Assembly (NCBI GenBank): GCA_018266295.1
Contig: JAFEAQ010000011.1
Location: 1-64,000 of the forward strand
Direction: 5' to 3'
Length of the DNA stretch: 64,000 nt
From: Bdellovibrionales bacterium
GTDB lineage: Bacteria > Bdellovibrionota > Bdellovibrionia > Bdellovibrionales > Bdellovibrionaceae
Positions 6,220 through 35,550 of the stretch are shown here, piece after piece. A program made the position numbers and the translations under genes. The stretch's first letter is position 1. Each line of letters starts with the position of its first letter. Below the pieces are notes generated by a model. It saw nothing but the letters and a program-made list of their open reading frames with translations, was not told the origin of the DNA and did no database searches.

Positions 6220-7110
6220 ATGAAAAATGTTTTTGGTAAAACGACTCTTATGATTGCTATGGGTCTAATAGCACTCTCTGCGAACGCAGGCCCTTATCGA
6301 CCGATGATTGGTTCGGGCTTTTCTGCTCCGAATATTAATGGCGAGGGTAATGTTTCAAATGCTCAGCCCGGAGACATTATCTATGATACAGGCGATGGGG
6401 CATTCAAAGGCTATGATGGATCTGCTTGGCAACCTTTTAGTGCAAGTACTGCGACATTTACTCCGCCTAAAGTTACGGTCCTCACCTCAACCTCAAGCTC
6501 TACCTTCAATACAACAGGACAACCGCTCTATCTAAAAATTCGCATGGTAGGTGGAGGCGGCGGAGGCGCTGGCGTTGGCACAGGAACAACCGGTGGAGAC
6601 GGTGGAAATGGGCAAGCAACTTCGTTCGGCCCAATAGCAACACCATCTTTGTTCACAGCTAACGGCGGACATGGAGGCACTCATAATGGCGGCCCAGGAG
6701 GCTCTGGTGGCAGCGTCTCTGTCCCTGGAGGGATCAATGGATTCGGCAGAATTGGCGGCTATGGAAGTGCTGCGATTCAATCAAATATTTCTAATGTGTC
6801 AGCTGCTGGTGGCGGCGGAGCAGCCTCTCCACTCGGAGGCGCCGGAGGTGGTGCTGCAGCCTCTAGCCAAGGCGTCAGCGCTCAGGCCAACACAGGATCA
6901 GGAGGCGGAGGTGCTGGAGCTCTGAATGCGACAAATGGAGCTGCCGGAGGTGGAGCAGGTGGATACATTGAAGCCACTATTTCTACCCCAGCTTCATCTT
7001 ATACTTATGCTGTAGGTGCCGGCGGCTCTGTTGGTAGCTCCGGCACAAGTGGATTCACAGGAGGAGCCGGAGCAGACGGCGTCATCATTGTTGAGGAATA
7101 CTATCAGTAG
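6220..7110 (+). CDS. Secreted glycine-rich protein with the shared N-terminal module
   Basis: The 296-aa protein has a signal peptide ending near ALSANA (residue 23). The shared module follows (FSAPNI, then SNAQPGDIIYDTGDGAFKGY, then W), aligning with the collar proteins at 706 and 34864. From about residue 110 to the end the protein is a glycine-rich domain of GGGGGAG, GGDGG and GGAG runs interspersed with short beta-like segments (YLKIRMVGGG, SYTYAVGAGG), ending GADGVIIVEEYY. This pattern resembles the glycine-rich receptor-binding domains of some phage tail-tip adhesins. That is an analogy from composition, not a domain assignment. It has an AAGGAAGG ribosome site, its own promoter and a strong bidirectional terminator, so it is a single-gene unit inside the polysaccharide locus. 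Confidence 0.78.
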   Translation: MKNVFGKTTLMIAMGLIALSANAGPYRPMIGSGFSAPNINGEGNVSNAQPGDIIYDTGDGAFKGYDGSAWQPFSASTATFTPPKVTVLTSTSSSTFNTTGQPLYLKIRMVGGGGGGAGVGTGTTGGDGGNGQATSFGPIATPSLFTANGGHGGTHNGGPGGSGGSVSVPGGINGFGRIGGYGSAAIQSNISNVSAAGGGGAASPLGGAGGGAAASSQGVSAQANTGSGGGGAGALNATNGAAGGGAGGYIEATISTPASSYTYAVGAGGSVGSSGTSGFTGGAGADGVIIVEEYYQ

Positions 7111-10690: not shown

Positions 10691-11509
10691 ATGGTCAAAT
10701 CGGGTTTAAATACATCAATATATAATCAAATTAAGACTGAGATTAGTGAAGCCTACCGTTTCCGTTACGTTACATTAGCTTTTGTATCAACCAATTTGAA
10801 GCTGCGCTATCGCAGGTCCTCTCTTGGATTCATTTGGACCGTCTTAGCACCTATGCTCCACTACATTCTTATTGGGTGTGTTTTTACGTTGTTAATGTCT
10901 CAAAGAAGACCCGACTATTTCGTATATTATTTTTCAGGGGCACTTTTTTTTGCGATTATTGCCGGAGTTTTGAACAAAGCACCAACGATCTTTATTGCCA
11001 ATGAACACTTCATTAAAAAGATCTATGTTCCTAAGTTAACATTTGTAATGAATGTCGTGAGTATAGAAGTCGTTAACTTCTTCCTGTCGGGCACGTCACT
11101 TATTGTTCTTGGTCTTATAATTGGTAAGTTTACTCCATCTTTTTATGTTTTTCTCTCTTTCGTACCGGTGATCCTTGCAGCTATGGCGCTTTTGGGACTT
11201 ACGTGCATTATTAGTGTCGCAAGCGTATATTTCCGTGATTTCATTCATATCATCCCTGTTGTTGTGCAGGCCGCTTTCTTTGCAACACCTATTGTTTATG
11301 ACGAAACAATGATTCCTCAGTCTTACCATTGGCTCATCTACTACAACCCAGTCTATTACTTCTTAAAAATGTTTCGAATGCCTCTTTTAGAACAGGCGGC
11401 GGCACCAATAAATTACTATATTTTCGGCTTCAGCTTTTCAGCTGTGTGTCTTATCGTTGGCCTTTTAACCGTTAAAAAATTCGATAATCGAATCGTATTT
11501 AAGCTCTAG
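10691..11509 (+). CDS. wzm: Polysaccharide ABC exporter permease (Wzm)
   Basis: The 272-aa ABC-2 type permease has six membrane helices. The N-terminal amphipathic stretch NLKLRYRRSSLGFIWTVLAPMLHY is typical of O-antigen and teichoic-acid exporters. It exports lipid-linked glycan to the periplasm together with the ATPase encoded 3 bp downstream. Length and helix layout match Wzm/TagG. It begins an apparent operon that continues through the ATPase and probably the large GT-C-like protein and the cassette to 18226. Confidence 0.9.
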   Translation: MVKSGLNTSIYNQIKTEISEAYRFRYVTLAFVSTNLKLRYRRSSLGFIWTVLAPMLHYILIGCVFTLLMSQRRPDYFVYYFSGALFFAIIAGVLNKAPTIFIANEHFIKKIYVPKLTFVMNVVSIEVVNFFLSGTSLIVLGLIIGKFTPSFYVFLSFVPVILAAMALLGLTCIISVASVYFRDFIHIIPVVVQAAFFATPIVYDETMIPQSYHWLIYYNPVYYFLKMFRMPLLEQAAAPINYYIFGFSFSAVCLIVGLLTVKKFDNRIVFKL

Positions 11510-11512
11510 ATT

Positions 11513-12274
11513 ATGCAAAATCACACTCCGGTTTCCATAAAACTAAATGATGTTTCTCTCGTATATGATCTTCATCACGATCGAACTAACAATCTCAAAG
11601 AATACATAGTCAATTTGCTTTCTCGACGCTCTTACGTCGATAAGCGCAAAGATGTATTGCATGCCTTAAATCATATCAATTTGGAGATTAATGAGGGCGA
11701 CAGACTCGGAATTATTGGACTTAACGGAGCTGGGAAAAGCACTCTTCTTAAAGTCATTTCTGGAATTTTAAAGCCAACCTCAGGTGAGATCATTGTTCAT
11801 GGCCATGTTCAGCCACTGATTGAGATAGGTGCCGGATTCGACCCAGAATTCACAGGACGAGAGAATATCTATTTAAACGGCTATATGCTCGGATTTACAA
11901 AGAAGCAAATCCAAGCAAAAGAACAAGAAATTATTGATTTTACTGAGCTGGGCCACTTTATTGACACCCCCATAAAATACTATTCCTCCGGAATGTCGGT
12001 ACGTCTTGCCTTTACAATCGCAACAATGATCGAGCCGGAAGTTCTTGTTTTCGACGAAATGCTCAGTGCTGGAGATGCCGTATTTATTCAAAAGGCACAA
12101 AAAAGGCTGAACGCAATCTTAGATAAAGCCAAAATTATTGTCTTAGTTTCTCATGATTTAAACATGATCAAAAATCTCTGCAATAAAGCCATTGTCGTGA
12201 ATAAAGGCGAAATACAGTTTTTAGGCCCTACTCAAGAAGCTATTGATCTATACTTAAAAAATACGATCCAATAA
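11513..12274 (+). CDS. wzt: Polysaccharide ABC exporter ATPase (Wzt)
   Basis: The 253-aa ATPase has Walker A GLNGAGKST, the signature YSSGMSVRLAF and Walker B VLVFDEMLSAGD, all as in Wzt/TagH-type ATPases. The H-loop is VLVSHDL. It energises export of lipid-linked polysaccharide through Wzm. It lacks the extra C-terminal carbohydrate-binding domain (about 150-200 aa) found in Wzt proteins that read a methyl or phosphate terminator. Chain-length control would therefore have to work another way despite the methyltransferase next door. Confidence 0.92.
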   Translation: MQNHTPVSIKLNDVSLVYDLHHDRTNNLKEYIVNLLSRRSYVDKRKDVLHALNHINLEINEGDRLGIIGLNGAGKSTLLKVISGILKPTSGEIIVHGHVQPLIEIGAGFDPEFTGRENIYLNGYMLGFTKKQIQAKEQEIIDFTELGHFIDTPIKYYSSGMSVRLAFTIATMIEPEVLVFDEMLSAGDAVFIQKAQKRLNAILDKAKIIVLVSHDLNMIKNLCNKAIVVNKGEIQFLGPTQEAIDLYLKNTIQ

Positions 12275-12341: not shown

Positions 12342-14423
12342 ATGAGTTTTCAAAAAATTACGAATTTTTGCATTAGAAATTCGACCTCTCTTCTATACGC
12401 TTTATTCATAGTCTTCATCATTTTTAATGAAGTAAATTTATATAAATTTTTGCTCCAGCTGCCGAGGCCTCAGATCTCAGTCCTCAGCTTTGCACAACGA
12501 TGTGTATGCTATGGCTCCTTTGCTTTGTTTTTATATTTAAGTCGTCGCAATAAGGGCCCACTCCTCAGAGTTTTTAGCCTAGCACTGGGCCTAACTAGTC
12601 TTTTTTATGCCGAACGGCTCATTCAGCCTTACCTATTCCAAGACGATTATTATCATTACTTAGCAATTATCCGAGGTCATTTTTTCGATGGTCTTTTCAT
12701 TCCATTTGTTGACCACGTTTCTCCCATTTGGCGTTTAGTTCAGTTTCTGAACCTCAAGGCTTTTGGCACTTATTTTGGTATAGCCACTTTACCATTTATC
12801 GGTGCCACTATTATGGCACTTTCTGCGACGGCTCTTTACTTTTCGCTTTCAAAATTAAAAACAGGTTATGCATTGCTCTTCACTCTGTTGCTGATCTCAT
12901 ATCCTGGCTATCGCAGTATTCTATTTTGGATCAGTACAAATGCCATCGCTCTTAGTTCTATTTTTGGCATTTTCACGCTTTATTTCAGTCAAAGATTTTT
13001 AGAAGACAAAGAACCTCAACGGAAACACCTAGCATACATATTCTTCCTCTCGTGCCTGAGTTTTTTCTCTTGGACCACTGGCCTCGTCTACCCCATATTT
13101 GTAGCCTCAATCGCAGTATTTAATTTTATTTTTAAGACATTTTTCGACAAAGATTTTAATTTTAAAAGAAATTTAAATGTTTTCGTCGCGTCGACCGCAA
13201 GCCTGGGTATTTTCACCATCACTCGCATTATCTCATATAAGGTATATACGCCAAAATTCACTACGAATTTGCTCTGGATTAAAAACGGACTTGAACACGG
13301 CTATGAGCAAAACTTTTTCCGCCCATTCGTTTGGCCTTTCCTTTCTGTTATCGACAGTCTTCTGCTTAGAGGAGGCTTTAACATCGAGCAAGATTTCAAC
13401 CGTTTTTGGTTTCTTCTTGGATCGGGAGTCGCTCTTTGTGCTCTCGTTTACCTTGTAGGTTTTGCCTTCAAGAACAAGTATCTCATTTATGCATACAATT
13501 TTGCCTTTTTGAGCTTCGCCGTCGTTTTTGTAAAAAGAGGAATGGGTTCCATCTCTCATACGGGAATGCATGGATATACATCGTATGCGATTCAAAACGA
13601 CTGGTACCGAATTTCGGCTTGGGCCGGAGTGTTGTTTTTTTTAGCTCTGGCACTATCAAGAGTCACGAGTGAAAAACTCAAAAAAACCTTTAAAAAAACC
13701 CTTGTTGGTATATTGGTCGTCTTTATGTACTATTCACTCCATTTCTCAACGCGTGTGAATCATCTCGCCGACATTAATCTGGCAAACTCCTCTCAATGGG
13801 CCGCTGCAAAATGCGTTAGCGAGCTCCCCTGGCCACCTGCCTATTTTTATTACGCATCTGCTAATATTTTTGCCCCTATGAGAGGGGCAAACCCAGGTAA
13901 TTATTGGTTAGGATACGAGCCTTCTTGGTTTGATATTGCAGCAGCTGGAAACAATGCAGACATTAAATTTGATATCAACAAGAGCAAACAGCTCATAAAT
14001 GACATCAATCACAACTGTTCTGAAGATTATTTAAATGATTTATCTAAAAAATATGCATTTTCGACCAGCAAATATAGCTCAGAAATGGCTGATGAAGCGG
14101 TACAACTCCAAATAGAAAAACAGCAGAATCTAGTAAACGCACAGCTTCCAAATTCACCTAACTCCTGCCCTTGGAGCCGCTATCAATTATTGGAGATTAA
14201 ACTATCCCCTATTAGACATAATACAAATTCTCAGATATCAATATCGCTTGAGAAAGAGATTAATTTTAGCTTTGAGCTAGCTGCTGAAGAGAAGCTCCTT
14301 ACATTGGATTTAAGGGTGCTACCGCCCGACAACCAGTGTAATAAAAACTTAGCTTTAAAAGTCCAGCCCGATGACTATGAAATATTGAGTATAAAAGCTA
14401 TCAGGTATTTAGATAAGGATTAA
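12342..14423 (+). CDS. Large GT-C-like membrane protein of unknown substrate
   Basis: The 693-aa protein has about eleven or twelve membrane helices in the first 480 residues, followed by a soluble C-terminal domain of about 210 residues. The loop after helix 3 contains FQDDYYHY (about residues 105-112). Paired acidic residues there are the hallmark of GT-C and Pmt-like lipid-dependent glycosyltransferases. The C-terminal part includes a beta-rich end (FELAAEEKLLTLDLRVLPP) that I do not recognise. It is probably a periplasmic glycosyltransferase that uses a polyprenyl-phosphate sugar, possibly made by the GT2 at 3981 or the one at 15512. The cupin gene starts one base after its stop. Confidence 0.68.
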   Translation: MSFQKITNFCIRNSTSLLYALFIVFIIFNEVNLYKFLLQLPRPQISVLSFAQRCVCYGSFALFLYLSRRNKGPLLRVFSLALGLTSLFYAERLIQPYLFQDDYYHYLAIIRGHFFDGLFIPFVDHVSPIWRLVQFLNLKAFGTYFGIATLPFIGATIMALSATALYFSLSKLKTGYALLFTLLLISYPGYRSILFWISTNAIALSSIFGIFTLYFSQRFLEDKEPQRKHLAYIFFLSCLSFFSWTTGLVYPIFVASIAVFNFIFKTFFDKDFNFKRNLNVFVASTASLGIFTITRIISYKVYTPKFTTNLLWIKNGLEHGYEQNFFRPFVWPFLSVIDSLLLRGGFNIEQDFNRFWFLLGSGVALCALVYLVGFAFKNKYLIYAYNFAFLSFAVVFVKRGMGSISHTGMHGYTSYAIQNDWYRISAWAGVLFFLALALSRVTSEKLKKTFKKTLVGILVVFMYYSLHFSTRVNHLADINLANSSQWAAAKCVSELPWPPAYFYYASANIFAPMRGANPGNYWLGYEPSWFDIAAAGNNADIKFDINKSKQLINDINHNCSEDYLNDLSKKYAFSTSKYSSEMADEAVQLQIEKQQNLVNAQLPNSPNSCPWSRYQLLEIKLSPIRHNTNSQISISLEKEINFSFELAAEEKLLTLDLRVLPPDNQCNKNLALKVQPDDYEILSIKAIRYLDKD

Positions 14424-14424
14424 A

Positions 14425-14751
14425 ATGAATACATACGATATCAGTAAGATGACAAAAGGATGGTTCATTGGCGATTTCCAGCCCAATGTTTTTCACTCTA
14501 AAGATTTTGAAGTCGCAGTAAAATACTACAAAGCTGGCGATAAAGAAGGAAAGCATCTTCATAAAATTTCGACAGAATATACGATGATAGCAAGCGGTAG
14601 AGTGAAAATGAATAGTATCACTTACGCGGCCGGCGCCATTATCGAAATTCAACCAAATGAAGCAACTGACTTTGAGGCTCTAGAAGACACTATTACTGTT
14701 GTTGTAAAAGTCCCAAGCTCTCAAAATGACAAATACCTGGTGGAGAACTAA
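14425..14751 (+). CDS. Small cupin-fold protein
   Basis: The 108-aa single-domain cupin has the metal-binding motif 1 around GKHLHKISTEYTMIASG (H.H followed by E). A second conserved strand region is AGAIIEIQPNEATDFEAL, where the usual histidine is not obvious. It is placed immediately ahead of two nucleotidyltransferases in a tightly packed cassette. It could be an isomerase or epimerase, or a binding subunit. Neither the reaction nor the metal is readable from the sequence. The gene is separated from the next by 2 bp. Confidence 0.65.
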   Translation: MNTYDISKMTKGWFIGDFQPNVFHSKDFEVAVKYYKAGDKEGKHLHKISTEYTMIASGRVKMNSITYAAGAIIEIQPNEATDFEALEDTITVVVKVPSSQNDKYLVEN

Positions 14752-14753
14752 TC

Positions 14754-15515
14754 ATGATCAATATCGTAATTCCAATGGCTGGCCGTGGTAGTCGTTTCGC
14801 ACAAAAAGGCTATACTCTTCCAAAACCTCTTATCGGCGTTCACGACATCCCTATGATTCGCTTGGTAATTCAAAACCTGACCCCAAGCGAAGATCACAGA
14901 TTTATCTTCCTAGCCCTTAAAGAGCACATTGATCAATATGGCCTGAATGAAAAACTCAAAGATTGGGCTGGAAAGCAATCTATTATTGTTCCAGTAACGG
15001 CAGTTACTGAAGGCGCCGCTTGCACCGTCCTCCTAGCAAAAGAATATATTAATAACCAAGACCAACTCATGATTGCTAATAGCGACCAATGGATCGATTT
15101 TGACATTAATGACTATTTGAAAAAAATGTCGAGCGAGAAACTCGATGGTTTGATCATGACTATGTTCGCGGATGACCCTAAATGGTCATTTGTAAAAATG
15201 AGTGGACCTCTTGTCACTGAAGTTGCAGAGAAAAAAGTAATTTCAAATGAAGCAACTGTTGGTATCTATAACTTTAAACATGGTTCAGATTTCGTACAGT
15301 ATGCTGAGCAGATGATCGATAAAAACCTTCGCGTGAACAATGAATTCTATGTTGCCCCTGTCTACAACGAGCTCGTTGAAAAAGGCCAAAAAATCTCTAT
15401 CTACAATATCGGGTCTGAGTTTGACGGTATGTACGGGCTTGGTATTCCAGACGATCTGAATAAATTCTTAGCTTCAAATATCTCTCAAAAGGCGATTGAA
15501 AGAATATCTCGATGA
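14754..15515 (+). CDS. Sugar/alditol-phosphate nucleotidyltransferase (paralogue 1)
   Basis: The 253-aa enzyme is a Rossmann-like nucleotidylyltransferase. It begins IVIPMAGRGSRFAQKGYTLP, then KPLI, the classic G.G.R...KP loop that binds the NTP and the phosphosugar. TEGAACTVLLA and ANSDQWIDFD supply the nucleotide contact and the metal-binding acidic residue. It activates a phosphorylated compound as an NDP derivative; the base and substrate are unknown. A clear paralogue (17501) ends the same cassette, which implies two activated compounds or a heteromeric pair. Its 3' end overlaps the GT2 gene by 4 bp. Confidence 0.82.
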   Translation: MINIVIPMAGRGSRFAQKGYTLPKPLIGVHDIPMIRLVIQNLTPSEDHRFIFLALKEHIDQYGLNEKLKDWAGKQSIIVPVTAVTEGAACTVLLAKEYINNQDQLMIANSDQWIDFDINDYLKKMSSEKLDGLIMTMFADDPKWSFVKMSGPLVTEVAEKKVISNEATVGIYNFKHGSDFVQYAEQMIDKNLRVNNEFYVAPVYNELVEKGQKISIYNIGSEFDGMYGLGIPDDLNKFLASNISQKAIERISR

Positions 15516-16231
15516 CTGAATCCCTGAGTCTCGTTATTCCCCTTTGGAATGAAGAAAAAAACATTCCGTCTCTCATCGAGAGCATTCAAAACAGCGGGCT
15601 CTCACTCAGTGAGAACTTCGAGCTCATATTGGTGAATAATGGTTCTCAAGATCAAACTGGTTATCTAATAGATCAAGCTGCCAAAACAAGACCTTGGATT
15701 CATAACGTACATCTCGATAGAAATCTAAATTATGGTGGTGGCATCCAAGTCGGTATCGAAAAGAGTAAAAACAATTTTGTTGGTTTTATTCCTGGAGACT
15801 TACAAGTCGCACCTAGTGACGTTGTCGTTCTCTGGGAAACTTGCCTAAATATGATAAAAAATGGGCAAAAAGAATTTTTAGTAAAAGGCTTTCGAGCTAA
15901 ACGCTATGATGGCATTAGTATTCAGTTTGTTAGCTTCGTCTACACTTTTCTAGCAAATCTCATTCTAAAAATTCACACTAAAGACTTGAATGCGCTTCCA
16001 AAAATTTTCAACAAAAGTCTTTACTTTAAAATCCATGGCACAAAGATCAATACTTTCGTTTTTGATGCCCAAATGATGTTAACTGCAAAACAGCAAAACA
16101 CAGCTGTCTATGAACTTCCAGTAATGTTTCACGCTCGCCGAGAAGGTGTTTCAAGCTGGTCTGGGAAAAGAATGAAAGTTTATTTTCAATCATTTAGATT
16201 ATTACTGAAACTTAGAAGAGAGAATTACTAA
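15512..16231 (+). CDS. GT2 glycosyltransferase, polyprenyl-phosphate transferase-like
   Basis: The 239-aa GT-A enzyme has LVIPLWNEEKNIP, VNNGSQDQT and the metal site PGDLQVAP (Asp in GD in place of the usual D.D). Residues after about 130 include the hydrophobic FVSFVYTFLANLILKIHTKDLNALPKIF, the shape of DPM1-like enzymes that act at the membrane. It may use one of the activated compounds produced by the flanking nucleotidyltransferases. It starts inside the end of the preceding gene (ATGA) and is followed after 6 bp by the phosphodiesterase-like gene. Confidence 0.78.
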   Translation: MTESLSLVIPLWNEEKNIPSLIESIQNSGLSLSENFELILVNNGSQDQTGYLIDQAAKTRPWIHNVHLDRNLNYGGGIQVGIEKSKNNFVGFIPGDLQVAPSDVVVLWETCLNMIKNGQKEFLVKGFRAKRYDGISIQFVSFVYTFLANLILKIHTKDLNALPKIFNKSLYFKIHGTKINTFVFDAQMMLTAKQQNTAVYELPVMFHARREGVSSWSGKRMKVYFQSFRLLLKLRRENY

Positions 16232-16237
16232 AATCAC

Positions 16238-16876
16238 ATGGTCGACATACTTGCTCACAGAGGCTACTGGATAGATCCTTCAGAAAAGAACACACTTGTC
16301 GCTTTTAAAAGAGCACTTGATAATGATTTTGGGATTGAAACGGACTTTAGAGATCGAGAAGGACGTTTATTTGTCGCCCATGATGTGAACGACAAAAACA
16401 TCATGCTGGCGGAAGATTTTTTTTCTCTACCTAAAATATCTATGGTTCCACTGGCTTTAAACATCAAGGCCGACGGCCTGCAAACTTTACTTAAAGAATC
16501 CCTATCTCGTTATAATATTACCAACTACTTTCTTTTTGATGCCAGCATTCCTGACCTGCTTGTCGCCGTAGCAAAAGAATTAAATAGCTACTCTAGGCTA
16601 AGCGAATACGAAGGATTTTCCGCCGTAGATGAAAAAACTAGTGGCTTTTGGCTCGACCAATTCCATGGCCTTTGGTTTACCGAAGCGTATATACGCACTA
16701 TTTTGAGCTCGAATAAGAAAATATGTATAGTGTCTTCAGAGCTTCATAAGCGAGACCACATACCTCTTTGGAACACACTAAAGAAAATATACAGAGACAT
16801 TCCTAAAAATCTGGCTCAAAATATGCAAGTTTGCACAGACTACCCTTTGGAATTTAGAGGATTTTTAAATGAGTAA
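16238..16876 (+). CDS. Glycerophosphodiester phosphodiesterase-like protein
   Basis: The 212-aa protein opens with ILAHRGYW, then EKNTLVAFKRALDNDFGIETDFRDREGRLFVAHD. These are the HRG, E.NT, E.D and HD residues that form the metal site and catalytic pair of GDPD TIM-barrel phosphodiesterases. The remainder is shorter than usual (240-300 aa), and the later strands are hard to match, so the barrel may be reduced. In this cassette it may cleave or transfer a phosphodiester-linked group rather than scavenge phospholipid. It overlaps the HAD gene by 8 bp. No signal peptide is present, so it acts in the cytoplasm. Confidence 0.72.
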   Translation: MVDILAHRGYWIDPSEKNTLVAFKRALDNDFGIETDFRDREGRLFVAHDVNDKNIMLAEDFFSLPKISMVPLALNIKADGLQTLLKESLSRYNITNYFLFDASIPDLLVAVAKELNSYSRLSEYEGFSAVDEKTSGFWLDQFHGLWFTEAYIRTILSSNKKICIVSSELHKRDHIPLWNTLKKIYRDIPKNLAQNMQVCTDYPLEFRGFLNE

Positions 16877-17504
16877 AGTTAAAGCGGTTCTTTTCGATAT
16901 GGATGGTGTACTTATCGACGCTAAAGATTGGCACTATGAAGCCCTTAATCGCGCGCTAGCAATTTTTGGCATGGAAATCTCTCGATATGATCATTTGGTC
17001 ACCTATGATGGTCTTCCTACAAAAAAGAAGTTAGAAATGCTCAGTAAAGAACGTGGTTTACCTAGAGATCTACATAGCTTCTTGAACGATCTTAAACAGC
17101 AATATACTTTTGAGCTTATTCATCAGAAGTGTAAACCAGTTTTCAAACATCAGTACGCGCTCTCTAAGCTAAAGCAGGAAGGCTATAAAATAGCAGTTTG
17201 TTCGAACTCCATTCGTAAAACTATTGAATTGATGATGGAGAAAGCAGACCTCACTCCATATCTTGATTTAATTGTTTCCAATCAGGATGTTAAAAATGGC
17301 AAACCAAACCCTGAAATCTATCTCAAGGCTATGACTCATTTCGACCTCAAGCCAGAACAGTGTTTAATTCTTGAGGATAACCAACATGGAATTGAAGCAG
17401 CGATCGCAAGCGGTGGTCATTTATTGAAAATTGAAACTGTAAACGACGTAAATATCGCCAATATCCACAACCGTCTCAAAAATCTCGCAGAGGGTAAGCA
17501 ATGA
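16869..17504 (+). CDS. HAD-superfamily phosphatase/phosphomutase-like
   Basis: The 211-aa HAD subfamily I protein has motif I LFDMDGVLID (nucleophile Asp and general acid Asp), a four-helix cap domain after residue 15, motif II VCSNS, a lysine in KNGKPNPEIY and motif IV LILEDNQHGIEAA. This layout is that of beta-phosphoglucomutase and small-sugar phosphatases. It would remove or move a phosphate on the intermediate handled by the flanking nucleotidyltransferases. It overlaps its upstream neighbour by 8 bp and the downstream nucleotidyltransferase by 4 bp, indicating tight translational coupling. Confidence 0.82.
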   Translation: MSKVKAVLFDMDGVLIDAKDWHYEALNRALAIFGMEISRYDHLVTYDGLPTKKKLEMLSKERGLPRDLHSFLNDLKQQYTFELIHQKCKPVFKHQYALSKLKQEGYKIAVCSNSIRKTIELMMEKADLTPYLDLIVSNQDVKNGKPNPEIYLKAMTHFDLKPEQCLILEDNQHGIEAAIASGGHLLKIETVNDVNIANIHNRLKNLAEGKQ

Positions 17505-18226
17505 TTAGAATTTTAATTCCAATGGCTGGGAAATCTAAATTTTTTAGCGAAGAGGGTTCTCAATTCCCTAAACCGCTGATTGAGGTCAAAGGCCAGCCGA
17601 TTATTCAACACACAGTTGAATGCCTTTCAAAGGTCAGAGAAGCGCACCAATTTATCTTTGTGGTTAATAAAGATGACGTCGAAAAATACCATATTCATAA
17701 CACTTTAAAGCTGTTAACCAGCGAACAATCAGTAATTGTATCACAAAATGGCAATACAAAAGGCGCCGCATGTACTTGCCTTCTCGCTGTAGAGCATATC
17801 AACGGTGAAGAGGAACTTATCATCTCTAATTCAGATCAGAAAATAGATGCTGATTTGAATACTCTAATTTCTAATTTTAGAAAACTGAACGCTGATGCAG
17901 GCGTTGTTTATTTTGAGTCTGTACATCCACAATGGTCTTATGTAAAACTTGAAGGCGACCACGCAGTAACAGAGGCAGCTGAAAAAAATCCTATCTCTAA
18001 AAACGCCATTGCCGGATTCTACTACTTCAAAAAAGGTAAATATTTTGTAGACTCAGCTAAAGCTAGTATTTCAAAAGATGCGCAGGTCAATGGACTCTAT
18101 TTTATCGCTCCAACTTTAAATGAGATGATTTTAAAGGCACAGAAGGTTGTAGCGCTAAAAATTCCAAATAGCGAATACCACTCTTTTTATTCTTGGGATA
18201 AAATTAAGGAATTTGAAAAAAAGTAG
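17501..18226 (+). CDS. Sugar/alditol-phosphate nucleotidyltransferase (paralogue 2)
   Basis: The 241-aa paralogue of the 14754 product has matching landmarks: ILIPMAGKSKFFSEEG with KPLIEV, NTKGAACTCLLAVEHI and SNSDQKIDAD. The loop reads GKSKFF rather than GRGSRF, so the usual invariant arginine position is altered. This could change nucleotide preference or indicate a regulatory subunit. It is last in the 14425-18226 cassette. After it lies a 145-bp convergent gap in which I see no clear terminator. Confidence 0.78.
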   Translation: MIRILIPMAGKSKFFSEEGSQFPKPLIEVKGQPIIQHTVECLSKVREAHQFIFVVNKDDVEKYHIHNTLKLLTSEQSVIVSQNGNTKGAACTCLLAVEHINGEEELIISNSDQKIDADLNTLISNFRKLNADAGVVYFESVHPQWSYVKLEGDHAVTEAAEKNPISKNAIAGFYYFKKGKYFVDSAKASISKDAQVNGLYFIAPTLNEMILKAQKVVALKIPNSEYHSFYSWDKIKEFEKK

Positions 18227-23397: not shown

Positions 23398-25279
<1,882 letters not shown>

Positions 25280-26742: not shown

Positions 26743-27980
26743 ACTGTCCTAAAATAACTAATGATTCTATAGATTAAAGAAGATCCTGAAACTACTAACG
26801 GAACTAGAATAGAAATCCAGAGTCCCGCCTCAATTGTAATTGCCGCTGCAAAATAGAATGTTGCACAAACGTATAGCAAAAGTATTGCCACATATTTTAT
26901 CAATGCAAAAATATATTCCTGCTTCAAAAAGTCATAATTTTGGTCGACCCAAAAAAACGTATTTGAAATGACCATTAGAGAACCGATTCCAAGCAATGAA
27001 AGTCCGTGCAAATATTTTTCACCAAAAAACCTTACAAGAAGGCTAACGGGGCTTAAGTAAATAATCAATGCCAAGCCAAACGAAATCATCAAGGTTACGC
27101 CTACAATCTTGGCAAATCGGATATTAAACAATTTTAAACTTTGTGTTAAAGTATTTGCGAGAACACTATAATTGGCCCCCAGTATAATAACACCTAGCAT
27201 GGTAGCGGGCTCTACAAGCTTGACTACAAGCTGAAAGTTTCCGAAGTCCTCTTTAGATAGGTATTCGGCGATGACCAACGAAATAACTCGTGACTGAAAC
27301 ACACTTATGAAGGCCAAAAGAGAAAGAAAAAATCCCCCTTTTAAGATTTTCAAAAACTCACTAGGCTCAATCCTCTTACTCGTCTTTATGCCTATTTTTC
27401 TTCCAATCGCCCACTGTTGATATGTTGAGCATATCCCCTGCACTGGAGATGTGAAACACAGCAGAAAAATATTGGCTTTCAAAGCTGCTGCTAAAATACG
27501 TGCAATATTGAGGGAGATACTCTGAACAATCGCTATTTTTTGCGCAACATGGTTTAAAAGCCTTTGATCGCAAATGACTGCCACGTAGTCATTAAAGCGG
27601 AATAGAAAGCGGATGCTTGCAATAGCTAGCAACAGCCAGAATGCTCTTTCCGGAGAGAAGACGAAGCCGAACAAGCAAACTAAAAATAAAATCATAAAAA
27701 TGACAATATTTTGCCAAAACCACAAGGAAGTTACGGTTGTCTCCTTGTCTGGATTTGACGCGAGATAATTTCTCAGATGAGTGGGGTTTACGAATGCAAA
27801 GGCTTCAAAGATTGTAAGGTAACTCATCACTAGCTGATATGTACCAAAAATATCTGGAGAGAAACTTCGCGCCAGATAGGAGGTCGCCGCAAATGCTAGA
27901 GCGTATCTCAAAAACGTATTGAGATTCGCCCAAAAAATATTCCGTAAAATAAGAGCTTTATGCGATTTAAACTCGCTCAT
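26739..27980 (-). CDS. Oligosaccharide flippase family protein (Wzx-like)
   Basis: The 413-aa protein has about twelve membrane helices with basic loops. It starts HKALILRNIFWANLNTFLRYALAFAATSYLARSFSPDIFGTYQLVMSY, the usual opening of polysaccharide-synthesis flippases of the MOP superfamily. It should move lipid-linked repeat units across the inner membrane. Its presence beside a Wzm/Wzt exporter means two different export routes in one locus. It overlaps hddA by 14 bp upstream and the GT4 gene by 4 bp downstream. Confidence 0.83.
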   Translation of the reverse strand: MSEFKSHKALILRNIFWANLNTFLRYALAFAATSYLARSFSPDIFGTYQLVMSYLTIFEAFAFVNPTHLRNYLASNPDKETTVTSLWFWQNIVIFMILFLVCLFGFVFSPERAFWLLLAIASIRFLFRFNDYVAVICDQRLLNHVAQKIAIVQSISLNIARILAAALKANIFLLCFTSPVQGICSTYQQWAIGRKIGIKTSKRIEPSEFLKILKGGFFLSLLAFISVFQSRVISLVIAEYLSKEDFGNFQLVVKLVEPATMLGVIILGANYSVLANTLTQSLKLFNIRFAKIVGVTLMISFGLALIIYLSPVSLLVRFFGEKYLHGLSLLGIGSLMVISNTFFWVDQNYDFLKQEYIFALIKYVAILLLYVCATFYFAAAITIEAGLWISILVPLVVSGSSLIYRIISYFRTV

Positions 27981-28965
27981 CTACATTCGTTTCATCAAAG
28001 TAAATGACTTTTGAGCCTTCTTGCTCGACTTTAAAATTCAATTTCTCTAAACCTAGCGCGGCCTGCAAATTTACCGCTTTTTCCGGAGGGCAAATAAATA
28101 GTAGAAACCCTCCACCACCAGCACCAAGAAGTTTACCTCCCCACGCCCCTGCCTTCATACCACGTTCGTAAGCCTCATCAATTTCCGGATTTGAAATCTT
28201 ACTTGCCATCTGCTTTTTGTAAAGCCAGTTCTGATGCAATAGCTCTCCAAGCTCTTGCCACTGACCTGCATACAGTAAATCACGAGCTTTGAATACAGAT
28301 GCAACCATCTGCTGCATCATTTTGAACTTCTCATCACTTTGCATATTGCTCTTCTGCTCATTCAGAACAGATGACGTTGAACGTGTCTGGCCCGTATAAA
28401 ACAAATGCATGTGCGACTGGAATTGCTGAAAAACTTTCTGACTTAAGTTAACTTGCTCAACCTCAACAAAGCCGTTGGTATTGAATTTAAAAATATTAAT
28501 ACCACCGAAAGCAGCAGCATACTGATCTTGCTTGCCAATAGGCTCTTTCAACTTTTCAATCTCGATACTGCACGCCTCTTCAGCCAATCGTTGCTTAGGA
28601 ACGAATTTATTATGACGAGCATAGAGGTTCTGCAACAATCCGACTGTAAAACAAGAGCTAGACCCCATTCCCGTTCCAGCCGGAATATCAGCAATAGAGC
28701 TTAACTCTACCCCACCCTTCATTTTAAACTGCAGAAAAACTTCGCGAATAATCGGATGATTAATATCACGCGGGTCATTCACTGTCTCAGTGCGTGAGTA
28801 CTTCGCGCGAATTTTATCTTTTTCAAAAAAGTTATGAACCGAAAGATACATGTACTTATCGATCGTAAAGCTAAGAACAGCCCCTGGCGATTGAGAGTAA
28901 AAGGCCTCAAGATCTGAGCCGCCACCAAAAAGACTGATACGGAAAGGCGTTTTTGTCATAATCAT
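27967..28965 (-). CDS. hddA: D-glycero-D-manno-heptose 7-phosphate kinase-like GHMP kinase
   Basis: The 332-aa GHMP-superfamily kinase starts MTKTPFRISLFGGGSDLEAFY, a signature seen in HddA and related sugar kinases. The phosphate-binding loop is IPAGTGMGSSSCFTVG, and GAWGGKLLGAGGGGFLLF is motif 3. It phosphorylates heptose-7-phosphate at C1 to the 1,7-bisphosphate. The assignment is supported by the fused phosphatase/guanylyltransferase directly upstream (ATGA overlap) and gmhA just beyond, which together complete the pathway. A fucokinase-like role is possible from the family alone. Confidence 0.88.
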   Translation of the reverse strand: MIMTKTPFRISLFGGGSDLEAFYSQSPGAVLSFTIDKYMYLSVHNFFEKDKIRAKYSRTETVNDPRDINHPIIREVFLQFKMKGGVELSSIADIPAGTGMGSSSCFTVGLLQNLYARHNKFVPKQRLAEEACSIEIEKLKEPIGKQDQYAAAFGGINIFKFNTNGFVEVEQVNLSQKVFQQFQSHMHLFYTGQTRSTSSVLNEQKSNMQSDEKFKMMQQMVASVFKARDLLYAGQWQELGELLHQNWLYKKQMASKISNPEIDEAYERGMKAGAWGGKLLGAGGGGFLLFICPPEKAVNLQAALGLEKLNFKVEQEGSKVIYFDETNVDERV

Positions 28966-30332
28966 AGTTGCAGATCCTTTCGAGGGAGAATGCCCTCCGC
29001 CAAAATATACTCTACAGCTTCCAAAAGGCCTGAGCAGATTTTTTCTGGTTCAACAGCTTTAGCCTCTTTGTAGGGATATCCCTCGCCGCCAGTTACGCCA
29101 ACAGTTCTCAGCTGGAATGTCTTCCCACACTCAACATCCCGCCAAGTGTCGCCGACCATCCAAGAATGAGGTCGATCAATATTAAACTCTGAACTCGCCG
29201 CCTTCAGCATACCCGTTTTAGGTTTTCTGCAATCGCAGTCGACTTTCAACTCTGGACGCTCGCCGGGAAATCCTTTTTCTGGATGATGTGGGCAATAGTA
29301 AATGCGCTCGACCCAGGCTCCAGACTCCCCAAGCAATGTCTCCATCTTTGCATGAATGAAGTGCAAGTCTTTTTCAGACAGATAGCCTTTGGCAATCATA
29401 GGTTGATTTGTCACGACAACAACGAGATAGCCTGCACGATTCAATTTACGAATCGCATCAGCCGCACCTTCACGCAGTTTCACATCTTCGCTTTTGTGGA
29501 TATCTGGAACGTATTGAAGAATCACTCCATCTCTATCCAAAAATACTGTAGGGCGTGGGTATGAGACTCTCAGGCGCTGAACTTTGCCGCTCTCCCAATC
29601 GTCACGAACCTTCTTAAGACGATCTGGCGTACCCATATCTTTCAGATACTCAGGGGAATTGAAGGCCATCACGTTTTTCTTAAGAACCATTTCCGGAAAG
29701 ATATCTCTTGCTAAATCACCACGGAAGCCCTCTGGGATCATTTCAAAAACTTCCGGAGGCAATATGTAGACAGCCGCATTCACAAGATTACGAGCTATCA
29801 AACCTGGAGCATGGGGCTTTGTGATAAATTTTAAAATTCGGTTGGCCTCATCAACATCTACCAAATCAGAATCATAGGGATGATCATTCGGATGAACAAC
29901 CAACGTCGCAAATGCTTTACTGTTGGCATGAAAGGCCGCAGCTTTATCAAGACTCAAAGAAGCTACGAGATCGCCATAGACCACCCAAAAAGGTTTATGG
30001 ATTTTTCCCTGGAGCTGTTTCAACGCACCGGCAGTTCCCAAAGGCTCCGTCTCTTCGATGATCTCTACAGACAATCCCCATCGACTCCCATCGCCAAAAT
30101 AATCGCGAATATGTTGAGCCATGTAGCCGGTCAGTAAAATGACTTTCTTAATTCCGAACTCTTTCAGCCACTCTACTTGGCGCTCTAGGAGTGGCTTTCC
30201 TGCAATATCAATCATTGGTTTAGGCAGGTTTTTTGCCATTTCGCCAAGACGAGTTCCCTTGCCTCCGGCCAAAATGACCGCGATTTCAGGAATAGCACTG
30301 TGATTTTCAGAAGATACTGGCGAAAAATTCAT
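28962..30332 (-). CDS. Fusion of heptose-1-P guanylyltransferase (HddC-like) and heptose bisphosphate phosphatase (GmhB-like)
   Basis: The 456-aa protein has two enzymes in one chain. Residues 15-255 are a nucleotidyltransferase (ILAGGKGTRLGEM with PKPM, VVYGDLVAS as the metal-binding D). Residues 260-440 are a HAD phosphatase (FLDRDGVIL, VVTNQP, then the cysteine/histidine zinc-binding cluster YYCPHHPEKG...DCDCRKPKTGML, then MVGDTWRD), the layout of GmhB. Consecutive steps of GDP-heptose synthesis are thus joined, although the order in the chain is the reverse of the order in the pathway. The ATG at 30332 is preferred. Longer starts reach into the divergent gmhA promoter. Confidence 0.88.
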   Translation of the reverse strand: MNFSPVSSENHSAIPEIAVILAGGKGTRLGEMAKNLPKPMIDIAGKPLLERQVEWLKEFGIKKVILLTGYMAQHIRDYFGDGSRWGLSVEIIEETEPLGTAGALKQLQGKIHKPFWVVYGDLVASLSLDKAAAFHANSKAFATLVVHPNDHPYDSDLVDVDEANRILKFITKPHAPGLIARNLVNAAVYILPPEVFEMIPEGFRGDLARDIFPEMVLKKNVMAFNSPEYLKDMGTPDRLKKVRDDWESGKVQRLRVSYPRPTVFLDRDGVILQYVPDIHKSEDVKLREGAADAIRKLNRAGYLVVVVTNQPMIAKGYLSEKDLHFIHAKMETLLGESGAWVERIYYCPHHPEKGFPGERPELKVDCDCRKPKTGMLKAASSEFNIDRPHSWMVGDTWRDVECGKTFQLRTVGVTGGEGYPYKEAKAVEPEKICSGLLEAVEYILAEGILPRKDLQL

Positions 30333-30406
30333 CCTATTGTATTTAAATTGAATCTGCATACATAGCAAGATTGCTTTTGAGGAAAACTCTCTGCTATTGT
30401 CAGTCC

Positions 30407-31024
30407 ATGCAAGCTGATCCACGCACTAAAAATATCTGGTTTAATTCGACTTCCTTAAACACTTATTTTTCCGACTATAAAAAGGCTTTAGCCCAAGCTA
30501 TGGAGACTATTCCCCAGGCCGAAATGGAAAAAGCCCATAAAGTGATGGTGGATGTCGCAAAACGTGGCGGCACTTTCTTTGTTGCAGGCAATGGCGGCTC
30601 CTCTGCCATCGCAGACCATCTTTGCTGCGACTGGACAAAAGGGACCTACGGAGAAAATCTCCTCCCTTTAAGAACGACTTCTTTAGGTGCTAACGCTGCT
30701 CTTATGACGGCTATCGGCAATGACTTTGGCTATGACGAAGTCTTTTCTCGCCACCTCAAAATGATGGCAAAGCCAACAGATGCCCTTTTCGTTATTTCTT
30801 CGTCCGGCAACAGCCCTAACATCGTCAATGCCATTAAAATGGCCCAAGAATTGGGCATTCCGAGTATTGCGCTGACAGGTTTTGCCGGCGGAAAAGCAAA
30901 AGACCTAGCAACTGTGAAAATTCACGTTGAGTACTCGAACTACGCGATTGTTGAGGACTGCCATCAGGCGGCGATGCAAGCGCTGGCGCAATACTTCTTT
31001 GCAGCTCAATCACCTCAGAAATAA
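30407..31024 (+). CDS. gmhA: Sedoheptulose-7-phosphate isomerase
   Basis: The 205-aa SIS-domain isomerase converts sedoheptulose-7-phosphate to D-glycero-D-manno-heptose-7-phosphate. FVAGNGGSSAIADHLCCDWTKG and FVISSSGNSPNIVNAI form the sugar-phosphate sites, and EDCHQAAMQAL provides the conserved C-terminal glutamate and histidine. I use the ATG at 30407. A TTG at 30371 has GAGGAAA nearby and would add twelve residues, so the start is uncertain. It is divergent from the GmhB/HddC fusion across about 75 bp, so both arms of the pathway may share a control region. The GT2 gene begins in the stop codon. Confidence 0.9.
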   Translation: MQADPRTKNIWFNSTSLNTYFSDYKKALAQAMETIPQAEMEKAHKVMVDVAKRGGTFFVAGNGGSSAIADHLCCDWTKGTYGENLLPLRTTSLGANAALMTAIGNDFGYDEVFSRHLKMMAKPTDALFVISSSGNSPNIVNAIKMAQELGIPSIALTGFAGGKAKDLATVKIHVEYSNYAIVEDCHQAAMQALAQYFFAAQSPQK

Positions 31025-34800: not shown

Positions 34801-34829
34801 TTGTAAGTTTATAAACAGAAAAATATGTT
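34801..34829 (+). promoter_or_regulatory. Shared-family promoter, copy C
   Basis: TTGTAA, a 17-bp spacer starting with the perfect palindrome GTTTATAAAC, then TATGTT. It lies 34 bp before the collar gene ATG. The preceding AACA and the palindrome are identical to copy A. Confidence 0.7.
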
Positions 34830-34863
34830 CTTCAGACAACAAAACACTATCAAGGAGGATAGA

Positions 34864-35550
34864 ATGAAGAAATATATTTTTAGTGCAATTTTCGTGATGG
34901 TCACTTCAGCACTTTACGTAAACGCTCAGAGCAACATTATGTCTCTGAACTTTATTGCCCCGCAAATTGATGATCGCAGCTATGTATCAAACCCACAACC
35001 TGGCGAAATCGTATTTGACTCTGGCGCCAATGCTTTTTATGGACATGACTCAACTGCCTGGACTCAATTAGGTACAACAGCTGGGAGCTCAATGCCTTCT
35101 GGAGCTATCGTTCCATTCGCTGGCTCTACAGCTCCAACAGGCTTCCTCCTTGCAGATGGGTCAGCAGTTAGCCGTACCACCTACTCCGCTCTTTTCGCTA
35201 TTATTGGCACAACATATGGTGCGGGAGACGGATCTACTACATTCAACCTGCCAGACTTAAGAGGTATCTTCGTTCGTGGTGCTGGAACACAAACAGTCGG
35301 TTCTATTTCATACACTGGTACTTTGGCATCTAAGCAAAACGACCAACTTCAGGGACATACACATGGATATGGTTCAAATACTAATACAGGAAGTGGGCCT
35401 TACTTAAACTTCGGGACAAATGCTTCATCTGATACAACTATGCGAAGCAATACATTGGGCCTTAACTCCGACGGCTCTAATGGGACTCCAAGAGCTGGAG
35501 CAGAAACTCGTCCAGCCAACATTTCTCTCACTTACATTATTAAAATCTAG
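34864..35550 (+). CDS. Secreted phage-tail-collar domain protein (copy 2)
   Basis: The 228-aa protein has a signal peptide ending near VNAQS (residue 20), the shared module (MSLNFIAPQI, then SNPQPGEIVFDSGANAFYG, then W), and a tail collar domain with SGAIVPFAGSTAPTGFLLAD, FNLPDLRGIFVRG and AETRPANISLTYIIKI. It matches the copy at 706 in architecture, while the loops inside the collar differ greatly, as expected for binding tips. The start is set by AAGGAGGA at 34851-34858, 5-6 bp before the ATG. It stands alone with its own promoter and a hairpin downstream. It marks the right edge of the polysaccharide region, as copy 1 marks the left. Confidence 0.85.
   Translation: MKKYIFSAIFVMVTSALYVNAQSNIMSLNFIAPQIDDRSYVSNPQPGEIVFDSGANAFYGHDSTAWTQLGTTAGSSMPSGAIVPFAGSTAPTGFLLADGSAVSRTTYSALFAIIGTTYGAGDGSTTFNLPDLRGIFVRGAGTQTVGSISYTGTLASKQNDQLQGHTHGYGSNTNTGSGPYLNFGTNASSDTTMRSNTLGLNSDGSNGTPRAGAETRPANISLTYIIKI

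Follow-up and report, generated by a model that had tools for sequence, protein, structure and literature searches.

What is made by a set of bacterial genes that joins a cupin and two nucleotidyltransferase-family proteins to a phosphatase-like protein and a barrel resembling the phosphodiesterases of the GDPD family? The question is raised by positions 14425-18226 of a 64,000-nucleotide stretch of DNA from a Bdellovibrionales bacterium (assembly GCA_018266295.1, contig JAFEAQ010000011.1, positions 1 to 64,000; hereafter the window), where six genes encode, in order, a cupin, the nucleotidyltransferase NT1, a GT2 glycosyltransferase, a GDPD-like TIM barrel, a HAD protein and NT2, a paralogue of NT1. 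Our analysis indicates that all of these except GT2 form the core of a conserved cassette. On balance we favor the view that the cassette is a self-contained pathway making a nucleotide-activated donor, nucleoside diphosphate-X (NDP-X, where X is a sugar or polyol), for a cell-surface glycan. It looks like an undescribed nucleotide-sugar pathway of unusual composition.

An initial annotation, made from the sequence alone, had proposed an activated-substituent cassette within a surface-glycan locus, a view that the conservation of the gene neighborhood supports. We recovered all six of its open reading frames (ORFs), on the plus strand and at the exact coordinates. Its overlaps of 4-8 base pairs (bp) hold for three of the five junctions (4, 8 and 4 bp), the other two being gaps of 2 and 6 bp; from cupin through NT2 the spacings are thus +2, -4, +6, -8 and -4 bp. 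The family calls for NT1, GT2, HAD and NT2 were upheld by Pfam, and those for the cupin and the GDPD-like protein, for which Pfam and NCBIfam gave no true match, by the folds of their AlphaFold models.

The grouping of the cassette genes is far beyond chance. With the GDPD-like family alone as bait we scanned GTDB, represented by a single genome for each species, and retained the best 80 of the 370 relatives returned. A six-frame profile count, chosen because ORF-based counts run low where ORFs overlap, placed HAD near the bait in 78 of these 80 loci, NT2 in 76, NT1 in 71 and the cupin in 66; with a single-gene bait and best matches biased to close relatives, these proportions hold for this branch of the GDPD-like family. 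The 80 loci are distributed over 14 named phyla. Both nucleotidyltransferase paralogues thus recur with the GDPD-like gene, as the initial annotation had suggested checking, and the outcome that it named as refuting its proposal, genes not conserved together, is contradicted. Half of the loci (40/80) share the order GDPD-HAD-NT2-cupin-NT1, and ten each have NT1-GDPD-HAD-NT2-cupin and GDPD-HAD-NT2-NT1-cupin; the order in the window (cupin-NT1, GT2, then GDPD-HAD-NT2) is a rotation of the common layout. The GDPD and HAD genes overlap or abut in nearly all loci. In a separate set of 291 genomes from the phylum to which the window belongs, HAD was found in 10 of the 11 with a GDPD-like gene (window-type only, E below about 1e-18), always adjacent, with gaps of -5 to 74 bp (p ~1e-12). 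Both NT2-NT1 and HAD-NT1 fusions occur, and relatives are also present on 27 plasmid records. Since HAD identity between phyla remains near 60% and the tree is mixed, the sequences suggest horizontal spread of the cassette, of which the tree by itself is no proof.

The two nucleotidyltransferases differ in what they have kept. NT1 (14754..15515, 253 aa; PF00483) retains the motifs GxGxRF, PKP, D111, E159-K160 and GxGxPxD234 in ~97% of 65-66 members, which is the catalytic set of PF00483 (GxGxR...PK, the Mg Asp, EK and the C-terminal GxPxD). It is the only one of the pair to keep the nucleotidyltransferase active site, and we predict that it is a catalytic, NDP-sugar-type enzyme. NT2 (17501..18226), a core gene in cells and 40% identical to NT1, still exceeds the Pfam family cut-off (43.9 bits). 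Across 70 members, however, neither the arginine of GxGxR nor the C-terminal GxPxD, with its second metal Asp, is kept, while D112/Q113 (~81-84%) and E161-K162, S166, A169, G172 and N207 (97-99%) are retained. With its catalytic motifs missing, the earlier reading of two nucleotidyltransferases as two activities is not supported, and NT2 is predicted to be a non-catalytic partner of NT1. The duplication is old, because NT1 and NT2 form separate clades in the tree, each of them one old clade; a recent tandem duplication was rejected on this ground. NT2-NT1 fusions are found in five loci, mostly alphaproteobacterial (L100, L113, L124, L129 and L141). The nearest parallel is GMPPA, a non-catalytic paralogue of the GDP-mannose pyrophosphorylase GMPPB that regulates it (PMC11228364). 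By analogy, and given the fusions, NT1 and NT2 would combine an active protein with a paralogue that looks inactive, and the two probably form a complex. They belong, however, to another subfamily, are encoded in a bacterial operon and are of single-domain size, and the regulatory likeness is suggested by sequence and fusions. A third NT-like paralogue, NT3, forms a separate clade and ends some cassettes (L048:6417-7118, L050:6306-7007, L017:12157-12852 and L103). At L016:7353-7754 and in seven other loci, a gene for a SnoaL-like protein (about 111 aa) is inserted between those for NT2 and the cupin; in L068 this protein is apparently fused to NT2.

The GDPD-like protein (16238..16876, 212 aa) has a familiar fold with a non-canonical active site (H7 R8 / E34 D36 / H48 / N75-x-K77). 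Pfam GDPD was not matched at E 0.1, yet the AlphaFold2 (AF2) model (predicted local distance difference test score, pLDDT, 96) superimposes on the GDPD 2pz0 from T. tengcongensis with Z 20.2 and 2.4 Å over 194 residues, and Z is about 20 to true GDPDs versus about 12 to unrelated barrels. H7, R8, E34, D36, H48 and K77 are invariant in the family (56/56 in alignment A2), whereas the third metal-binding Glu, that of ExK, is Asn (N75) in 56/56, an equivalence assigned from motif and strand order, with N75 two residues before the kept K77. The protein thus shares with canonical GDPDs (2pz0, GlpQ) the TIM barrel, the catalytic His pair, the HR, E.D and HD motifs and the Lys of ExK, but differs from them in this Asn, in a smaller chain (~30 residues shorter than 2pz0) and in its glycan-operon setting. 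Between H48 and N75, the interval in which GDPDs carry the GDPD insertion, it has 26 residues; the family also has invariant residues of its own (D79, D101, S122, W138, D140, S166, H170, R172, C199 and D201). An identity as a canonical GDPD is not supported. Because Asn replaces the third metal-binding Glu, ordinary glycerophosphodiester hydrolysis is unlikely, and because the acid-base pair is retained while the metal site is changed, we expect phosphoryl chemistry on another substrate.

The HAD protein (16869..17504; PF13419) conserves the catalytic residues D10, D12, S112, K145, E169 and D170, that is, the four motifs (DxD, S/T, K and ED) of a C1-cap HAD. It is nearest to the beta-phosphoglucomutase (bPGM)/hexitol phosphatase group, with 3kbb, MtlD and bPGM as PDB relatives, yet falls under every NCBIfam equivalog cut-off: the bPGM equivalog scores 100.3 bits (cut-off 189.4), and the subfamily model TIGR02009 likewise stays below its cut-off (131.9 against 153.35). 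Pfam DUF matches of HAD, like an M20_dimer match of the cupin, were under cut-off and are regarded as chance. The cupin (14425..14751, 108 aa) gave no true match in Pfam, NCBIfam or PDB sequence searches. Its metal site, H44-x-H46-x4-E51, is complete, with the three residues present in 58/58, and its AF2 model has a pLDDT of 90. The most compact structural match is 7zvm, a 104-residue archaeal phosphomannose isomerase (Z 11.3, root-mean-square deviation 1.6 over 85 residues); since this match is tied with many other cupins, the model offers a sugar(-phosphate) isomerase-type function as a lead only.

A second packing of these parts occurs in viruses. An IMG/VR scan with the cupin profile found 523 relatives, and in 84 viral loci, some of whose contigs may be misassigned host DNA, NT1 was present in 70, HAD in 57 (fused to NT1 in most of them), the GDPD-like protein in 70 and NT2 in only 2. 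In most cases the viral GDPD-like protein is a short form of 147 aa, whose gene often overlaps that of the cupin by 4 bp; these short forms mostly have His at the third metal-Glu position. Cyanophage S-CAM9, for example, carries a HAD-NT1 fusion and a short GDPD-like protein, and one contig (L150/L196) has the cellular version of the cassette. That phages repack the same four parts strongly supports one functional unit and the dispensability of NT2. Cupin relatives occur in hundreds of viral contigs, some of 200-490 kb, and in the viral loci L150-L233 the genes sit among glycosyltransferases (e.g. L154:6631-8734 and L194:6623-10268). In what is probably a sister pathway, found in other Bdellovibrionota (L018, L019, L024 and L054-L057), a tandem NT-NT fusion, both halves of which appear largely canonical, is accompanied by GT2, HAD, a GDPD-like protein of reduced length, a class II aldolase-like protein and a membrane protein to which a uridine-kinase-like domain is fused.

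From conservation, gene order, fusions, folds and the active-site residues kept or lost, we infer the reactions, their order, the NT1-NT2 complex and the kind of compound that X would be. The pathway would lead from a central sugar (or polyol) phosphate to NDP-X, the donor for a cell-surface glycan. The cupin may isomerize or cyclize the sugar, and HAD would remove or move a phosphate just ahead of activation, the step attributed to NT1; for NT2, the most likely role is to regulate or shape NT1 within a complex of the two. The phosphoryl chemistry of the GDPD-like barrel would act on a cyclic phosphate or a phosphodiester, though not on an ordinary glycerophosphodiester. In the window's genome, GT2 could then move X to polyprenyl phosphate, a GT-C-like membrane protein could place it, and a Wzm/Wzt system would export the polymer. 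A bolder version, which we think rather unlikely, has the barrel shift phosphate within its substrate by way of a cyclic phosphodiester. An NT1-NT2 heteromer with one dead subunit would activate the product, an anomeric or ketose/alditol phosphate of an unusual kind; this pathway would have spread across phyla and been condensed in phages, which would use it to remodel the glycans of the host or the virion.

Several points weigh against a donor-synthesis pathway. The enzyme activity of every member is a prediction from sequence, and the closest solved relative of NT1, 4evw, is itself uncharacterized. The biosynthetic genes common to cassette loci indicate no single sugar. The role of the GDPD-like protein is not derived from its sequence and could be hydrolytic housekeeping; moreover, HAD-NT1 fusions occur in some genomes with no recognized GDPD-like neighbor, so a substitute for the GDPD step may exist. 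One rival is a scheme of quality control or feedback, in which the barrel would degrade surplus NDP-X or a by-product, NT2 would act as its sensor and biosynthesis would be left to the cupin, HAD and NT1. The most frequent phage core, HAD-NT1 plus cupin, would suit it, as would the regulation of GMPPB by GMPPA (PMC11228364), but a GDPD-like protein in 70 of the 84 viral loci is more than would be expected of an optional editor, and we consider this scheme improbable.

Only a little more credible is an active NT2 with an altered mechanism or another substrate, so that two NDP donors are made: the residues it retains speak for this, but the missing arginine and metal Asp, and a phage version that manages without NT2, argue otherwise. 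The cassette might instead, along the lines of the initial annotation, make and transfer a decoration attached through a phosphodiester, such as glycerol-P or alditol-P, with NT1 producing a CDP-alditol and the GDPD-like and HAD proteins trimming or recycling phosphodiesters. The retained GDPD fold and the proximity of HAD to hexitol/beta-PGM phosphatases give this proposal some appeal, and we regard it as unlikely rather than implausible, given the uniform replacement of the metal Glu and the lack, by Pfam, of any TagD-type (PF01467), TagF/LicD or choline/ethanolamine kinase protein among the six. That these are simply common surface-glycan genes, neighbors by accident, is hardly credible: every gene does come from a large superfamily and gene order is variable, but core co-occurrence in 66-78 of 80 loci in 14 phyla, the fusions and the second packing in phages contradict it.

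Among described systems, the GDP-heptose cassette (GmhA, HddA, HddC-GmhB) likewise has a HAD protein fused to or adjoining a PF00483 nucleotidyltransferase, as in HAD-NT1, but the present cassette has no sugar kinase or SIS isomerase and instead a cupin and a GDPD-like barrel. Glycan clusters of cyanophages and jumbo phages bring together cupin, nucleotidyltransferase, HAD and glycosyltransferase genes (Iyer et al. 2021, PMC7824862); that work names HIGH-type nucleotidyltransferases, we found no mention in it of a GDPD-like member, and the present set is not defined there. The Campylobacter O-methyl phosphoramidate (MeOPN), CDP-glycerol and fructose modules are also decoration modules of capsule loci, but use other enzymes. 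In agreement with the initial annotation, Pfam matched none of the six proteins to the CDP-glycerol (TagD-type CTP_transf_like, TagF-type transferase), phosphocholine (Lic; choline kinase, LicD transferase) or MeOPN (glutamine kinase, amidotransferase) sets. A fructose or ketose product was dropped as the lead, as fructose addition in C. jejuni HS:1 maps to a single unrelated gene, HS1.08, on which the branch depends (PMC7901785). Nor can a typed O-antigen structure be linked to the cassette to name its product, because the Pantoea-type cassette is in no E. coli genome at the DNA level. PADLOC models gave no match to an anti-phage defense system, and the whole set is described by no Pfam, NCBIfam or PADLOC model and by no paper that we found in the open-licence PMC literature.

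The surroundings of the cassette in the window fit a surface-glycan locus. A 693-aa polytopic membrane protein (12342..14423, plus strand), with six or more hydrophobic segments, an early loop containing 'QDDYYHY' and no match in a Pfam scan, is a GT-C-like candidate. It ends 1 bp 5' of the cupin, so the transcription unit probably starts upstream, at the genes for an ABC-2 permease and ATPase (10691..12274, plus strand; Wzm/Wzt-type polysaccharide exporter, assigned from sequence) or earlier; these belong to the same gene run, and their homologues adjoin other cassettes. GC content is 38% at the cassette versus about 45-50% over much of the remaining window. GT2 (15512..16231; PF00535), initially counted as a cassette member, has relatives near the cassette in just 7 of 73 loci and was rejected as a core gene. 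Its resemblance to GtrB (phrog) and to ArnC, sll0501 and DPMS (PDB) makes it a candidate maker of polyprenyl-P-X. Cassette loci also contain ABC exporters, sugar epimerases, glycosyltransferases and WavE proteins, the last being candidate transferases elsewhere. In 30 loci among those examined, a family of ~329 aa is encoded no more than a few genes away from the cassette, and both members tested match Pfam WavE (PF07507). WavE is present in one of the 291 genomes of the phylum, in a cassette locus, and absent from the window's genome, where GT2 and the GT-C-like protein may do the WavE-type transfer job. A ~259-aa family ending in 'FPYHY' is found near the cassette in 10 loci (e.g. L058:12508-13287, L074:12112-12864 and L084:3192-3971), with no Pfam match in the one member scanned. 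Elsewhere in the window, at 27967-31024 and 23398-25240, an apparent GDP-heptose set (HddA-like kinase, HddC-GmhB-type fusion, GmhA-like SIS protein) occurs together with an epimerase and a gene resembling GDP-mannose 4,6-dehydratase, which suggests a modified GDP-heptose; the heptose set itself lies at 27967-31024. The glycan island is flanked by two short secreted proteins (706-1452 and 34825-35550) that look like phage tail-collar proteins, and a glycine-rich secreted protein is encoded at 6220-7110.

Surface sugars of unidentified kind limit how capsules, O-antigens and phage receptors can be read. As a self-contained set of five genes present in 14 phyla, on plasmids and, compacted, in hundreds of viral contigs, the cassette would define a new activated building block and serve as its genetic marker. 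Furthermore, it offers a GDPD-fold enzyme with an altered metal site, and a bacterial, operon-encoded example of a nucleotidyltransferase retained alongside a paralogue that seems to be dead.

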